Assembly (NCBI GenBank): GCA_003017855.1
Contig: PYER01000039.1
Coordinates: forward strand, 1-32,574
Reading direction: 5' to 3'
DNA from: a filamentous cyanobacterium CCT1
Lineage (GTDB): Bacteria; Cyanobacteriota; Cyanobacteriia; Phormidesmidales; Phormidesmidaceae
Length of the DNA stretch: 32,574 nucleotides
Position numbers and translations under genes: made by a program. Shown here piece after piece: positions 14,232 through 18,985 of the stretch. Each line of letters begins with the position of its first letter. Position 1 is the first letter of the stretch. The notes below the pieces were generated by a model that worked only from the letters and a program-made list of their open reading frames with translations, was not told the DNA's origin and ran no database searches.

Positions 14232-14255
14232 AAACGTTCGAACGTTCGAACGTTT
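14232..14255. repeat. 24-bp perfect palindrome built of GTTCGAAC words
   Basis: From 14232 to 14255 the sequence equals its own reverse complement and consists of 8-bp AACGTTCG steps. It covers the last base of the DUF1400 stop codon. It lacks the U-tract of a terminator in either direction. Confidence 0.7.
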
Positions 14256-14776
14256 CAAAGAAAAATTGACAGGGGGCGTAGAAAGCTGGCCAGGCGGTTG
14301 TAGGCGGCCTGAATGTTGTCGCCCTCTAGCACCACTTCTTCGGTGGGGTAGTTTTGCAGTAGCTCCAGCAGGGTTATCTGCTGGTCATCGCTGGCCGACA
14401 GCACCAGCGCCGATCGCAGCGCCTGGCGGTCAGCTACGCCCGCCCCAGTGTGAATCGACTGACCAACGTAGTCGAGCACCCATTCGCCAGGGCGGCTGTT
14501 GAGGGAGCGATCGAGAATGACGGCGTCGGCGGCCAGGGGGCGGGTGAGCAGCGATCGCAGTTCGCCCGGATTTTGCCCCGCCTGGTTGAGCAGCCCGCCC
14601 AGCACGCCGGTGGCTTCGCCCGTATTGGCCAGCAATTCGAGCAGAACAACGGGTACGGTGCGGCTAAACCCCCGGTAGTTGAGCCGCACTCGCTCGGCAG
14701 CAAGCCCCGGGCTAATGGCCAGGGTAATTAGCCCCAGACTGGCCAGAGCAATGGCTGTAACGATTCGTCGCTGCAT
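14255..14776 (-). CDS. Exported DUF1400-domain protein
   Basis: A 173-aa protein with a signal peptide (basic MQRR, hydrophobic core, cleavage after GLAA near residue 27). The rest (AERVRLNYRGFSRTVPVVLL start; LLTRPLAADAVILDRSL; a helix with LRSALVLSASDDQQITLLELL; NYPTEEVVLEG) follows the pattern of DUF1400, a cyanobacterial domain usually found in front of an alpha/beta hydrolase. Here it is alone: no hydrolase follows. The likely location is periplasm or thylakoid lumen. Function unknown. The start follows a GGAGG sequence 8 nt upstream. The next gene upstream (GntR) is co-directional with a 90-bp gap. Confidence 0.75.
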   Translation of the reverse strand: MQRRIVTAIALASLGLITLAISPGLAAERVRLNYRGFSRTVPVVLLELLANTGEATGVLGGLLNQAGQNPGELRSLLTRPLAADAVILDRSLNSRPGEWVLDYVGQSIHTGAGVADRQALRSALVLSASDDQQITLLELLQNYPTEEVVLEGDNIQAAYNRLASFLRPLSIFL

Positions 14777-14866: not shown

Positions 14867-15589
14867 TCAAGCGCTGGCCCCAGCCCGGGTGCTGAGGGAG
14901 TAGCAGAAGCGATCGGCCCGCGAAATGGTAGACCCGTACAGCACGGGCTGCTGATTGCTGCTGTAGGCCGTGTAGCGATAGACCATCAGGGCGTGGCCCA
15001 GGGGTACCTCTAAGTAGCCGCTGAGGTCATAGTCGGCGTGGGTGCACTCGATCACGGCATCAAGACAATCGATGGGAATACCGTGCTGGGCTAGGGTGGG
15101 AAAGGTCATCTGCTGTTCTAGCAGGGGCGCAAAGCGTTCGCCCAAATCGGCGATTAGGTAGGACACATCCACCGCCCCGGCGGCTCCGTCCATGCGGAAG
15201 AGTTTTTTTTGCAGGTAGACTGGCGACGCTTTGCCAATCTCCAGGGCCGCTGCCACATCTCTGGGGGCAGCAACTGGTTCAAACTCCAAGTTTTCAAAGG
15301 AAAAGGCAACCCCCTGGCGGGCCATGTCCTGCTCTAAAAATACCAGCGGGCTGGAGAGCGAGTAGGTCACTTTCTTTTGGGGCGTGACAAAGACGCCTTT
15401 GCCCCGGTAAGCGATCGCCAGCCCCTGGCTGACCAGGTTGGCCACCGCCTGCCGGGCCGTAATGCGGCTGACGCTGAAGGTTTCCATCAGCTGGTGCTCG
15501 CTGGGCAGGCGATCGCCCGACGCATAAACCCCCGCCTCGATCTGGTGGCGCAGCTTTTCAGAAATGCTGATGTGAAGAGGAGGAGACAT
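14867..15589 (-). CDS. GntR/HutC-family transcriptional regulator
   Basis: A 240-aa regulator. Residues 5-70 form the GntR winged helix (ISEKLRHQIEAGVYASGDRL, PSEHQLMETFSVSRITARQA, then the GKGVFVT wing), and residues about 80-235 form a UTRA ligand-binding domain (LEQDMARQG, then KLFRMDGAAGAVDVSYL), which marks the HutC subfamily. Such proteins usually repress and let go when a small metabolite binds. It is divergent from the desaturase/hydrolase operon, and the spacer between them carries a perfect 16-bp palindrome, so it most likely controls that operon. The ligand cannot be deduced. Confidence 0.9.
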   Translation of the reverse strand: MSPPLHISISEKLRHQIEAGVYASGDRLPSEHQLMETFSVSRITARQAVANLVSQGLAIAYRGKGVFVTPQKKVTYSLSSPLVFLEQDMARQGVAFSFENLEFEPVAAPRDVAAALEIGKASPVYLQKKLFRMDGAAGAVDVSYLIADLGERFAPLLEQQMTFPTLAQHGIPIDCLDAVIECTHADYDLSGYLEVPLGHALMVYRYTAYSSNQQPVLYGSTISRADRFCYSLSTRAGASA

Positions 15590-15633
15590 AGTCAGAGAAC
15601 CATCAACCGGCGGTGGGCATGCTCACATACAGC

Positions 15634-15678
15634 TTGACCAGCCAAAATAATGTGCTAAGCTCACTTGTTATAACAAGT
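15634..15678 (+). promoter_or_regulatory. Promoter with overlapping GntR-type palindromic operator
   Basis: TTGACC (15634-15639) and TAAGCT (15656-15661) are 16 bp apart and fit a plus-strand promoter. Two bases later, on the expected start site, lies the perfect palindrome ACTTGTTATAACAAGT (15663-15678). Its core GTTATAAC resembles the GT-n-TA-n-AC sites of HutC regulators with the central two bases swapped. A repressor bound there would block transcription of the desaturase operon. Confidence 0.5.
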
Positions 15679-15698
15679 TGACTGCAGTCCATGCAGAG

Positions 15699-15737
15699 GG
15701 TCGTTGTGCTGACTGCTCTAGTCAGCAGGTCGTTGTG
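15699..15737 (+). promoter_or_regulatory. Hairpin framed by 10-bp direct repeats in the desaturase leader
   Basis: GGTCGTTGTG occurs at 15699-15708 and 15728-15737. Between them GCTGACT (15708-15714) and AGTCAGC (15720-15726) form a 7-bp hairpin with a 5-nt loop. Just upstream is another palindrome, GACTGCAGTC (15680-15689). The block lies in the putative leader of the desaturase mRNA and may be an extra operator or an RNA control element. Confidence 0.4.
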
Positions 15738-15835
15738 GGAAAGGTGAACTGAGAGCTTGGGCGATCGCCCAGGCAGTCTACCTTTCATTCTCATTATCCG
15801 ATGTTGCCAAGGCATTTTCTACCCGAACGTTAACC

Positions 15836-16771
15836 ATGCTTACGAATACTACACCTGCTGCTAAACTCAGTCCGCTGCCGGTTCAACCGCGCCAGGTTTT
15901 ATCTGCCGAGGCGTTGAGCATTCTCAATCAGCGGTCGAACCGGGCCGGGGCGATTCAGCTTTTGGGCCATCTGGGGGTGATGGCGATTAGCGGCTACCTG
16001 TGGGCGATCGCCCCGCTGGTGGTCGCGCTGCCCGCCCTGGTCATCTGTGGGGCCAGCCTGGCGCTGATGTTTTGCCCCATGCATGAGTGCAGCCACCGCA
16101 CGGCCTTTGCTAACCCTCGCCTTAACGACGGTGCGGCCTGGCTGGCGGGGCTGCTGTCGTTCTATAACAGCACCTTTTACCGGCGTTACCACAAGTGGCA
16201 CCACCGTTACACCCAAATTCCGGGCAAAGACCCTGAGCTCGATGATCCCAAGCCCCATAGCCTGGCCAACTATTTTTGGCAGCTCAGCGGCATTCCCTGG
16301 TGGATTGGTAAAGTGCGCTGCCACAGCAAAGTGGCGCTGGGGCAACTGGAGAGCATGTACTATCTGCCTGAGAGCGGCCACAGTGAGGTGGTGCGATCGG
16401 TGCGCCTGCAACTGTTCACCTATGCTGCAGTAATTGTGGTCTCTACCCTGCTTGGCCACCCGTGGTTTTTGTTCACCTACTGGGTGCTGCCGCTGGCTGT
16501 GGGTCAGCCAGTGCTGCGGTTTGTGCTGCTGGCTGAGCACACCGGCTGCCCCAACGACGAAAATCCATTGATCAATACCCGCACCACGCTCACCCTCTGG
16601 CCCCTGCGTTGGCTAATGTGGAACATGCCGTACCACGCTGAGCACCACCTGTATCCGTCAATTCCGTTCCAGGCGCTGCCAGCGGCCCACGGGCAGCTCA
16701 AGCCCTACTTTGAGCACGTCGATGCGGGCTATGTGCGGGTAAATCGCAGTATTGTGGCCAAAGTTAGCTAA
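15836..16771 (+). CDS. Membrane fatty-acid-desaturase-family protein
   Basis: A 311-aa membrane di-iron protein. The three histidine boxes are HECSH (83-87), HKWHH (119-123) and HAEHH (267-271), with an extra AEHTGC (233-238). Hydrophobic segments before box 1 and between boxes 2 and 3 give the usual four membrane passes. The family includes acyl-lipid desaturases and related hydroxylases and ketolases; this member lacks a clear match to DesA/B/C/D wording, so the substrate is unknown. It begins 246 bp from the GntR gene and is followed after 8 bp by a MetX-like hydrolase, which suggests one mRNA and one pathway. Confidence 0.85.
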   Translation: MLTNTTPAAKLSPLPVQPRQVLSAEALSILNQRSNRAGAIQLLGHLGVMAISGYLWAIAPLVVALPALVICGASLALMFCPMHECSHRTAFANPRLNDGAAWLAGLLSFYNSTFYRRYHKWHHRYTQIPGKDPELDDPKPHSLANYFWQLSGIPWWIGKVRCHSKVALGQLESMYYLPESGHSEVVRSVRLQLFTYAAVIVVSTLLGHPWFLFTYWVLPLAVGQPVLRFVLLAEHTGCPNDENPLINTRTTLTLWPLRWLMWNMPYHAEHHLYPSIPFQALPAAHGQLKPYFEHVDAGYVRVNRSIVAKVS

Positions 16772-16779
16772 GGGCGGCG

Positions 16780-17784
16780 ATGGCAACACCAGAACAGTTT
16801 GTGCTGAAAGATTTTCCGCTGCAGTGCGGGGTGGTGCTCCCCAAGGCCAAGGTGGTGTACCAGGTCTATGGCGAGCTAAATAATGAGCGCACCAACGCCG
16901 TTCTCTACCCCACCTCCTACGGGGCACAGCACACCGATGTCGACTGGCTGGTGCGCCCCGACGGCATTCTCGACCCCAGCCGCTGGGCGGTGGTAATGGT
17001 GAATATGTTTGGCAACGGTCTCTCGACCTCGCCCAGCAACGACCCAGCCGTAGCCCGCCCCGACGTTTACTTCACCCAATACGACAACGTGCGGGCTCAG
17101 GTGGCGCTAATTGACGCACTGGGGATCGATCAGCTGGCTCTGGTCTACGGCTGGTCTATGGGGGCGCAGCAGGGCTACCACTGGGCCACGCTGTACCGCG
17201 ATCGCGTGCAGCGTCTGGCCGCCCTCTGCGGCACCGCTAAAACCACCGACCACAACAAACTCTTTCTCTACAGCCTGCGGGCCGCCCTTACCAGCGACCC
17301 GGCCTGGACCGGCGATCGCTTTACAGGCACACCCGATCGCGGCTTTCACACCTTTGCCCAGATCTACGCCAGCTGGGCGGCATCGCAGGCCTACTACCGG
17401 GCCAAGCCCTACCTGGCCTGGGGCTATGACTCGCTCGAAGACTATATTTTGCGCGGCTGGGAGGCGGGCTATCGAAAGCGCGATCCCCACAACCTGCTGG
17501 CCATGATCGATACCTGGCTGCGCTGCGATGTGGGCGACAACCCCGTTTATCAAAGCGACTATGCCAAAGCGATGGGATCGATCACCGCTAAAACTCTGGT
17601 CATGCCCGCCACCACCGACCTCTACTTCACCCCAGAAGACTGCGAGGCCGAAGCGGCTCTGATCCCCAACGCCCAGTATCGACCTATTCCATCGATTTGG
17701 GGGCACCGGGCGGGCAACCCCTACCAGAACCCTGAGGATGAGGCGTTTATTCGAGAGGCGATCGCCGAGCTGTTAAGCCAATAA
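16780..17784 (+). CDS. Alpha/beta hydrolase of the homoserine O-acetyltransferase (MetX-like) family
   Basis: A 334-aa alpha/beta-fold protein. The MetX-type opening (ALVYGWSMGAQQGYHWA) carries the nucleophile Ser126 in GWSMG; the acid is probably the Asp in MPATTDLYFTPED and the histidine the one in WGHRAGNP. True MetX proteins usually read GGSMGGMQ around the serine; the GWSMGAQQ form belongs to a MetX-like side branch whose members are often esterases. A methionine role is therefore not assumed. It starts 8 bp after the desaturase stop and is very likely co-transcribed with it. No terminator stands out before the intergenic repeats that follow. Confidence 0.8.
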   Translation: MATPEQFVLKDFPLQCGVVLPKAKVVYQVYGELNNERTNAVLYPTSYGAQHTDVDWLVRPDGILDPSRWAVVMVNMFGNGLSTSPSNDPAVARPDVYFTQYDNVRAQVALIDALGIDQLALVYGWSMGAQQGYHWATLYRDRVQRLAALCGTAKTTDHNKLFLYSLRAALTSDPAWTGDRFTGTPDRGFHTFAQIYASWAASQAYYRAKPYLAWGYDSLEDYILRGWEAGYRKRDPHNLLAMIDTWLRCDVGDNPVYQSDYAKAMGSITAKTLVMPATTDLYFTPEDCEAEAALIPNAQYRPIPSIWGHRAGNPYQNPEDEAFIREAIAELLSQ

Positions 17785-17987: not shown

Positions 17988-18467
17988 CTAGGGTTCAAGC
18001 TGAATAGTTGACTCACACTGCACCGGGAAATTGACCGAATTGGCGACAAAGCACTTTTGATACGCCTGCTCGTGGAGCTGGGCAGCCAACTCGGCATTGC
18101 TCTGGGGCACCAGGGTGACTACCGGACGCAGCAAAACCTTAGAAAACCGCCCGCTGCCGTCCTCCGTTTCAATCATCGTGCCGATGGGATAGTCAACGTA
18201 GCCGGTGACCACGACCTGAGCCTCGGCGCATAGGTGCAGATACCAGAGCATGTGGCAGCTCGATAGCGACGCGACCAAAAGTTCTTCGGGGTTGTACTTG
18301 GTCTTATCACCGCGAAAGGCCGAGTCAGCCGAGGCTTCGATCGCGGGCTTGCCGTTGGCACTGATGCGGTGGGCGCGATCATAGGCGCGATAGCTCTCGG
18401 TGCCCTGGCCGTTATTGCCGGTCCATTGCACCTCAACCCGGTAGAGGTGGGTTTTAGCTTGACTCAT
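17988..18467 (-). CDS. OsmC/Ohr-family protein
   Basis: A 159-aa protein of the OsmC family, thiol peroxidases that reduce organic hydroperoxides. Residues 58-80 contain YNPEELLVASLSSCHMLWYL with the peroxidatic Cys71; the resolving cysteine is probably the one in AYQKCFVANSVNFPVQC near residue 140. The call rests on these motifs and the length. The ATG at 18467 is preferred over an upstream GTG at 18482 because GAGG lies 8 nt before it and because it overlaps the stop of the grpB-like gene as ATGA, a translational-coupling arrangement. Confidence 0.85.
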   Translation of the reverse strand: MSQAKTHLYRVEVQWTGNNGQGTESYRAYDRAHRISANGKPAIEASADSAFRGDKTKYNPEELLVASLSSCHMLWYLHLCAEAQVVVTGYVDYPIGTMIETEDGSGRFSKVLLRPVVTLVPQSNAELAAQLHEQAYQKCFVANSVNFPVQCESTIQLEP

Positions 18468-18985
18468 GCTCTTCCTCGCCACTGTAGCGCCCGCCGCTCC
18501 ATCGCTTTGACAAAGCTATCTTTGCCATCCATGTAGCCGTCGATGTCTTCAGCATACTCTGCCGCCAGGGCACGTTTGAGGTCGCTGTACTGCTGAGCGC
18601 AATTGGGGTGAGCAATCATAAAGTCGCGAAAGGTCAGGTGACGAATAATTTCGAAGGAACCCGTCTGGAAGGTGTGAACGTGGCGGGTGCGATCGCCCTC
18701 GGCATTGTCTTTACGAAAGTAGCGCCGCCCTGGTAGGCCAAACTCGCCCATCACCTCGTAGCCTAGGGACATCATTGCGGAGTTGCGGCCATCCATCTGG
18801 TCGATGTCGTTGACCTCCACCAGCAGATCGATCACGGGTTTGGCATAGATATTGGGAATGGCGGTACTGCCAATGTGGTAAATCTGCACCACGTTATCGC
18901 CTAGGGCCAGTGCGATTTGGGCTGCCTCAGCAGCAAAGTCTTTGCCCCATTGGGGGTTAGGAGGGTGAACCTGAACCTGTCTCAT
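18464..18985 (-). CDS. GrpB (UPF0157) nucleotidyltransferase-fold protein
   Basis: A 173-aa protein of the GrpB/UPF0157 family. The core segment HIGSTAIPNIYAKPVIDLLV (about residues 37-56) has the G-S and D-x-L pattern of the nucleotidyltransferase fold, followed by the RRYFRKD and RTRHVHTF segments typical of the family. The biochemical role of the family is not well established. Its stop codon overlaps the osmC-like start by ATGA. Upstream is the petE terminator, so grpB-osmC form a two-gene unit. Confidence 0.85.
   Translation of the reverse strand: MRQVQVHPPNPQWGKDFAAEAAQIALALGDNVVQIYHIGSTAIPNIYAKPVIDLLVEVNDIDQMDGRNSAMMSLGYEVMGEFGLPGRRYFRKDNAEGDRTRHVHTFQTGSFEIIRHLTFRDFMIAHPNCAQQYSDLKRALAAEYAEDIDGYMDGKDSFVKAMERRALQWRGRA

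Follow-up and report, generated by a model that had tools for sequence, protein, structure and literature searches.

The window is a stretch of 32,574 nucleotides of contig PYER01000039.1 from an organism that, judged by its sequence, is a cyanobacterium close to Nodosilinea. In it, a GntR-family regulator gene faces a two-gene operon encoding DES, a predicted membrane diiron oxygenase of the desaturase superfamily, and HYD, a MetX-like serine hydrolase. We lean towards the view that DES–HYD forms part of a regulon under GntR that draws nitrogen out of small organic amines or amides, because the genes sharing its predicted operator, a linked ligase gene (glnT), promoters of the nitrogen-control (NtcA) type at some GntR-less loci and many neighbours of relatives elsewhere point there. 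The operon probably feeds an undescribed use of organic nitrogen in the window's cyanobacterium. An earlier note on this DNA had suggested a lipid, carotenoid or ester product; that suggestion is not supported, since DES fails the models of lipid enzymes and the operator-sharing genes are amine-nitrogen genes.

The regulator gene (14867-15589, minus strand, 240 amino acids) is divergent from DES (15836-16771, plus strand, 311 amino acids), and HYD (16780-17784, plus strand, 334 amino acids) starts 8 bp after the DES stop. Families were assigned by Pfam cut-offs and by the curated cut-offs of NCBIfam. The regulator has both a GntR domain (62.9 bits) and a UTRA domain (65.7 bits), each over its Pfam cut-off, which places it among the HutC/UTRA GntR regulators and bears out the earlier description of a HutC-type regulator facing a closely spaced two-gene operon. 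Every named NCBIfam equivalog scores under its cut-off, the best being PhnF with 101 bits against 156.8. Phosphonate control was rejected, as PhnF is under its cut-off and the neighbours examined include no identified phosphonate genes.

An exact 16-bp palindrome, ACTTGTTATAACAAGT, lies at 15663-15678, at the expected transcription start, and a search of the window with up to two mismatches gives no other match, against 0.01 expected from shuffled sequences. Its conservation was followed in 81 DES loci, namely the window and the best 80 of 127 loci, a set that leans to close relatives; the nearest named loci among those 80 are from 'Filamentous cyanobacterium CCP3' and two Nodosilinea LEGE strains, with DES 90-92% identical, records of the window's own genome possibly being excluded. 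GntR is divergent next to DES in 34 of the 81 loci, and all 34 have the palindrome ACTTGTYATRACAAGT upstream of DES, 31 exactly and three with one mismatch. The regulator-controlled set that the earlier note had envisaged is thus real and conserved. Among the 47 DES loci lacking GntR, the palindrome is found within one mismatch in three, and the other 44 are at least four mismatches away. Because it is conserved together with GntR, we read the palindrome as the predicted operator of the regulator, and it behaves as one. Site scans of 57 genomes, with the reversed palindrome as the control pattern, gave exact matches in 22 genomes and none for the control; at up to one mismatch there are 88 sites versus six control sites (summed by hand), and in the window's genome four versus none. 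G056 has two such sites before DES, though its GntR relative is located elsewhere.

The trio is conserved as a unit. HYD lies directly downstream of DES in 60 of the 79 loci with enough sequence (L083, with overlapping frames, would be the 61st), the two genes overlap by 4 bp in 29 loci, and HYD adjoins in 26 of the 34 GntR loci. The neighbourhood search in other genomes therefore went in favour of the earlier note, and neither a dispersed trio nor close homologues with an ordinary desaturase function were found. When the 57 whole genomes were searched for DES and HYD at E ≤ 1e-60, DES was present in 35, HYD in 35, both in 34 and neither in 21, with DES alone in G029 and HYD alone in G035. Among the 31 genomes outside the genus, 13 have both genes, one has DES alone, one HYD alone and 16 have neither (Fisher p = 9e-7, uncorrected for kinship). 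In G032, G036 and G052 the two genes are separated yet both present, the HYD match of G052 being under the family cut-off. A plasmid of Nostoc sp. UHCC 0302 (L120) carries a HYD-glnT pair without DES, beside an SDR gene and among transposases. Seven Pseudanabaena-type loci have a creatininase-family gene next to DES, and ThiM is found at three loci; we treat both as local synteny.

What the operator precedes elsewhere is central to our reading. One of the four sites in the window's genome is that of the DES–HYD operon itself. The others are 47 bp before a gene for a 499-residue protein of the glutamine synthetase (GS) family, GS499 (C361:3940); between genes for a PhyH dioxygenase and a family-3 solute-binding protein, SBP3 (C361:1120); and 99 bp before a gene for a 242-residue glutamine amidotransferase, GATase (C301:38425). 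Of all 14 exact sites away from DES, those of the window's genome included, 13 precede GS499 and one (L210) lies by a Rieske/BCCT module. A further 20 loci with one mismatch comprise ten SBP3/PhyH, two GATase, one GS499 and one Rieske gene (L248), besides six sites taken up below. In six of the 14 loci with a site at GS499, the next gene after GS499 comes from a single cluster; the member scanned belongs to the acetamidase/formamidase (FmdA-type) family and, by eye, looks exported. In G027, a PhyH gene, then a primary-amine oxidase gene (997 bits, over its cut-off) and an Amt-family gene stand in line with operators. In G028, which lacks DES and HYD, an Amt-family gene comes after a GntR relative, and that stretch has no operator at up to three mismatches.

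Routes through gamma-glutamylation are known for aniline (Atd/Tdn), isopropylamine (Ipu) and putrescine (Puu). They resemble the present set in having a GS-like ligase, a glutamine amidotransferase and an oxidising enzyme, and differ from it in that here the oxygenase has a desaturase fold, control is by GntR and the host is a cyanobacterium. It is from the ligase, amidotransferase and oxygenase logic of those routes that the operon is read as an oxygenase–hydrolase unit; common control of the three functions is found here through the shared predicted operator only.

The second line of evidence is GlnT, a type III glutamate-ammonia ligase whose gene lies no more than 3.5 kb downstream of DES in 21 of the 81 loci. 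GlnT proteins pass the TIGR03105 cut-off of 469.6 bits with 693 and 583 bits. GlnT comes in two types, which share 70-79% and 49-53% identity, respectively, with the L064 protein. All 35 genomes with DES carry one or the other; the two types occur together in none of the 57 genomes, and one type is present in four of the 22 genomes without DES. Searched against 7cql, the 70-type scores 630 bits and the 50-type of the window's genome 532 bits. The 7cql entry is a gamma-glutamylmethylamide synthetase (GmaS), for which PMC7948447 names the residues of the methylamine site. Three 70-type GlnT, one 50-type GlnT and one GS499 protein were aligned, with numbering transferred from 7cql and Lys30' outside the comparison, and all five retain Tyr147, Gln175, Asp177, Glu179, Glu186 and Asn188; two archaeal/bacterial glutamine synthetases have Ala, His and Asp in place of Gln175, Asp177 and Asn188. 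The GlnT partners are thus like GmaS in score and in six methylamine-site residues, and unlike it in being linked to an oxygenase and a hydrolase. GlnT may share a preference of GmaS for methylamine over ammonia; from the GlnT site, methylamine-sized amines are our best guess for the substrates. In the window's genome, the 50-type glnT is divergent from the GATase gene and accompanied by genes for an iron alcohol dehydrogenase and an aldehyde dehydrogenase, whose best models (4-hydroxybutyrate and succinic-semialdehyde dehydrogenases) both score under their cut-offs. Across 21 loci of the 50-type, an alcohol dehydrogenase gene follows in 14 and both dehydrogenase genes in 11, contig ends not being allowed for. 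A second type III GS gene lies beyond the operator-preceded GATase gene in L164, L168, L170, L171 and L174; that of L164, GS457, passes TIGR03105 with 555 bits and misses two methylamine-site residues.

The GmaS-like character of GlnT would also suit a regulon acting on N-methylated or quaternary amines of the choline, betaine or carnitine type, with DES as a demethylase and GlnT capturing the freed methylamine. MocD has been proposed as a demethylase in rhizopine breakdown (PMC10107442). A DES relative in Ruegeria lies near sarcosine oxidase, PhyH and Rieske genes, together with a ferredoxin gene. In addition, a GntR paralog (36-42% identical to the window's GntR) accompanies Rieske oxygenase, BCCT transporter and sarcosine-oxidase-like genes in five loci, L210, L215 (G000:C24), L216, L217 and L220, which would form a betaine-type module; the operator is exact in L210 and has two mismatches in L217 and L220. 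However, the paralog is a different gene, and in L215 and L216 no operator turns up even when two mismatches are allowed. Nor was a stand-alone N-methylglutamate-synthase-like open reading frame seen in the window's genome with a single query, a Leisingera protein of the FMN-glutamate-synthase family. That query gave only a 1569-residue frame at 33% and a partial match, and the N-methylglutamate pathway was rejected. We hold an N-methylated or quaternary amine to be an unlikely substrate.

The nature of DES bears on the lipid, carotenoid or ester pathway. In favour of such a pathway, DES belongs to the FA_desaturase superfamily (Pfam, 147 bits, passed) and has a membrane fold. However, it scores 34.5 bits against a cut-off of 500 for DesA, 33.1 against 500 for DesB and 27.7 against 475 for CrtR, and its identity as an acyl-lipid desaturase or carotene hydroxylase was rejected. 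Arginine hydroxylation of the GntB kind was likewise rejected (55.2 of 380 bits), though GntB was the best of the named models. Ten DES histidines are invariant across 35 aligned proteins, two of them proteobacterial, and DES matches all three boxes (HECXHRTAFA, FYRRYHXWHHRXT and MWNMPYHXEHHL) that a 2008 survey gives in its table for cyanobacterial 'hydrocarbon oxygenases (MocD)' (PMC2593844). Synpcc7942_1713 of Synechococcus elongatus PCC 7942 is a listed mocD gene. The three histidine boxes reported in the earlier note are therefore present, and its view that DES is no standard acyl-lipid desaturase stands. The AlphaFold model of DES (pLDDT 88) matched, by Foldseek/VIA, two chains of the chloroplast FtsHi complex with Z 22-24, which together with the alkane monooxygenase FtAlkB ranked above all other matches; the Z of 12.9-13.4 for FtAlkB is close to what the mere arrangement of helical bundles can yield, and no weight attaches to the absence of other desaturases among the matches listed. 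By its histidine boxes, DES is best read as an oxygenase of the separate MocD class, not as a lipid desaturase. It shares the boxes of the MocD-type proteins as tabulated in that survey and differs from MocD systems in being coupled to HYD and GS-like genes. Unlike the rhizopine MocD (PMC10107442), DES has no mocE- or mocF-like (ferredoxin, reductase) genes beside it in the window, and no rhizopine genes were seen. With histidine boxes of a separate class and amine-nitrogen genes under the same predicted operator, a lipid, carotenoid or ester pathway is very improbable, even though HYD is closest to the acetyl esterases MekB and CgHle.

HYD has the Pfam domain Abhydrolase_1 and passes the NCBIfam model PRK07581 (450 bits, cut-off 332), in the PRK07581/MekB branch. 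Its identity as a MetX homoserine acyltransferase was rejected, with scores of 110, 103 and 82 bits against cut-offs of 500, 331 and 560, so that the earlier placing of HYD on the MetX-like branch, outside the methionine genes, is upheld. The triad Ser126, Asp280 and His309 is invariant in 25 of 25 sequences. The model (pLDDT 87) is closest to MekB (TM 0.89-0.90, 34-36% identity) and to CgHle (31%). HYD is like these acetyl esterases (PDB 5e4y, 5efz, 5d6o) in fold, triad and 31-36% identity and differs from them in its setting, which is nitrogen metabolism.

Fourteen HYD records from elsewhere were viewed, 13 of them annotated; eight of the 13 lie near amidase, formamidase, NCS1 permease or urea-type genes, three near a GS-family gene and two near neither kind. 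Together with the FmdA-type gene after GS499 in the loci noted above, these neighbours would fit a regulon in which HYD and the FmdA-type protein degrade simple amides or formamides, the GS-like proteins only assimilate ammonia and DES acts on the carbon part, with no gamma-glutamylation of amines. The same proposal can draw on Cupriavidus, one of six plasmid records viewed for DES, where the order is HYD-DES-4-hydroxybutyrate dehydrogenase (over its cut-off), FAD reductase and rubredoxin. Against it are the methylamine-site residues in GlnT and GS499, and the amine oxidase and GATase genes that share the operator; we consider it quite unlikely. A parallel only is the rise of glnT, cytosine permease and formamidase genes in nitrogen-starved M. 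smegmatis (PMC4222082).

In three of the six plasmid records HYD adjoins DES: Cupriavidus, Paroceanicella (order Fe-ADH-HYD-DES, with an iron alcohol dehydrogenase) and Leptolyngbya BL0902 (order DES-HYD-glnT). Rubredoxin or ferredoxin genes adjoin DES relatives in some of the records viewed, which counts in favour of the amine-nitrogen reading; nothing telling surrounds DES in Nostoc C052. Of four GS499 records, three are accompanied by a gene of the type-1 glutamine-amidotransferase or gamma-glutamyl-GABA-hydrolase family, and the fourth is by P450 genes on plasmid pGKT2 of Gordonia. On that plasmid (Gordonia sp. KTR9, L254) the GS499-like stretch, 39.6% identical, sits between P450 and FAD-oxidoreductase genes. 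We take pGKT2 to be the plasmid that carries genes for degradation of the explosive RDX.

The remaining line of evidence is nitrogen control. A strict NtcA promoter was defined as GTAN8TAC plus TAN3T at 20-24 bp, upstream of DES, and compared with shuffled sequences and 327 control upstream regions. Such promoters were found in eight of the 47 GntR-less DES loci, where shuffling gives 0.25 on average and 2 at most, in two of the 327 control regions and in one of the 34 GntR loci. Two more sites (G026 and G033) came from another nine regions upstream of DES. These NtcA sites are predicted, as motif matches; a box in L135 built from the common GCGATCGC repeat was excluded from the counts. Before glnT, a GTAN8TAC box lies at 57-72 bp in 15 of the 21 loci of the 50-type, mostly of one genus, without the canonical TAN3T and with no shuffle comparison. 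A near-NtcA motif (CTA N8 TAC with TAAATT) lies about 150 bp upstream of DES in the Nostoc-type loci L063, L066, L073, L074, L076 and L078, whose DES copies have no adjacent HYD.

A scheme for nitrogen scavenging from amines can be drawn from these elements, in which we infer the binding and ligand of GntR, the substrates, the order of the reactions and the part of HYD. A GntR dimer would bind the palindrome at the transcription start, and a metabolite of the pathway would release it. The amine would be joined to glutamate by GS-like ligases, namely GS499 in the window's genome and, in other cyanobacteria, the GlnT of the linked operon. DES would oxidise the amine, perhaps by hydroxylating the alkyl group of the amine itself or of its gamma-glutamyl amide; PhyH and, in one relative, a copper amine oxidase may oxidise it too. 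Hydrolases, that is, HYD, GATase and in some relatives the FmdA-type amidase, would free nitrogen and glutamate, and the alcohol and aldehyde dehydrogenases beside GlnT would handle the carbon. It is tempting to go further, on a speculative footing, and propose that DES hydroxylates the carbon next to the nitrogen of a gamma-glutamyl N-alkylamide made by the GS-type ligases from methylamine or a similar amine, giving glutamine and an aldehyde without N-methylglutamate synthase; if that were true, cyanobacteria would have a direct alkylamine-to-glutamine route.

Several observations weigh against the amine-nitrogen scheme. The part of HYD is its weakest point, and HYD stands beside amidases without DES in other bacteria, so that its role may be separate. 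The six remaining sites of the 20 one-mismatch loci are at genes given no family. GS499, about 30% identical to GlnT, reaches 297 bits, under the TIGR03105 cut-off of 469.6; GATase and the alcohol and aldehyde dehydrogenases are also under their equivalog cut-offs, and the methylamine-site set is incomplete in GS457, GS_M382 and GS_Leis, whose genes lie either close to HYD or within the GATase operon. G007, G010 and G017 have GntR, DES and HYD and no GS499, and G042 has a GntR relative and no operator. No strict NtcA site was found in 39 of the 47 GntR-less loci; none lies upstream of DES in the window, and NtcA control of the window's own operon was rejected. Lastly, a DES relative in Phyllobacterium lies by biotin genes.

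Other features of the spacer accompany the operator. By eye, we propose a DES–HYD promoter on the plus strand at 15634-15661, with TTGACC (15634-15639), 16 bp, and TAAGCT (15656-15661). The earlier note had described a promoter with a perfect palindrome on the start site; the palindrome is there as described, and the promoter is partly supported, the stretch preceding the palindrome (consensus TGTGCTAAGCT) being largely conserved in 13 genus members and the consensus promoter scan not listing TTGACC/TAAGCT, whose -10 is weak, and listing another plus-strand match, at 15622-15651. Between operator and DES, 15-bp direct repeats (15694-15708 and 15723-15737, 87% identical) frame a short hairpin, as had been reported; the arrangement is partly conserved among the 13 genus members, and 15691-15745 folds at -14.4 kcal/mol, a single value with no shuffle comparison. 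A DUF1400 gene (14255-14776, minus strand) and an OsmC-family gene (17988-18482, minus strand) flank the locus. The cluster of the former recurs at 14 of the 81 loci and that of the latter at 11, so both look like local synteny.

The protein families are already known, MocD-like proteins having been catalogued in 2008; the operator, the regulon and the nitrogen role appear to be new, in that no account of the operon or of these three was found in the open-licence PMC literature. The locus offers a natural case of one operon under local control by GntR in some lineages and under global control by NtcA, as judged by motif, in others. If our reading is true, a class of cyanobacterial 'fatty acid desaturases' moves from lipid to nitrogen metabolism, with its operator defined, its partner ligases named and its class of substrates open to test. 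It would also hint at the way in which some cyanobacteria obtain nitrogen from dissolved organic amines.

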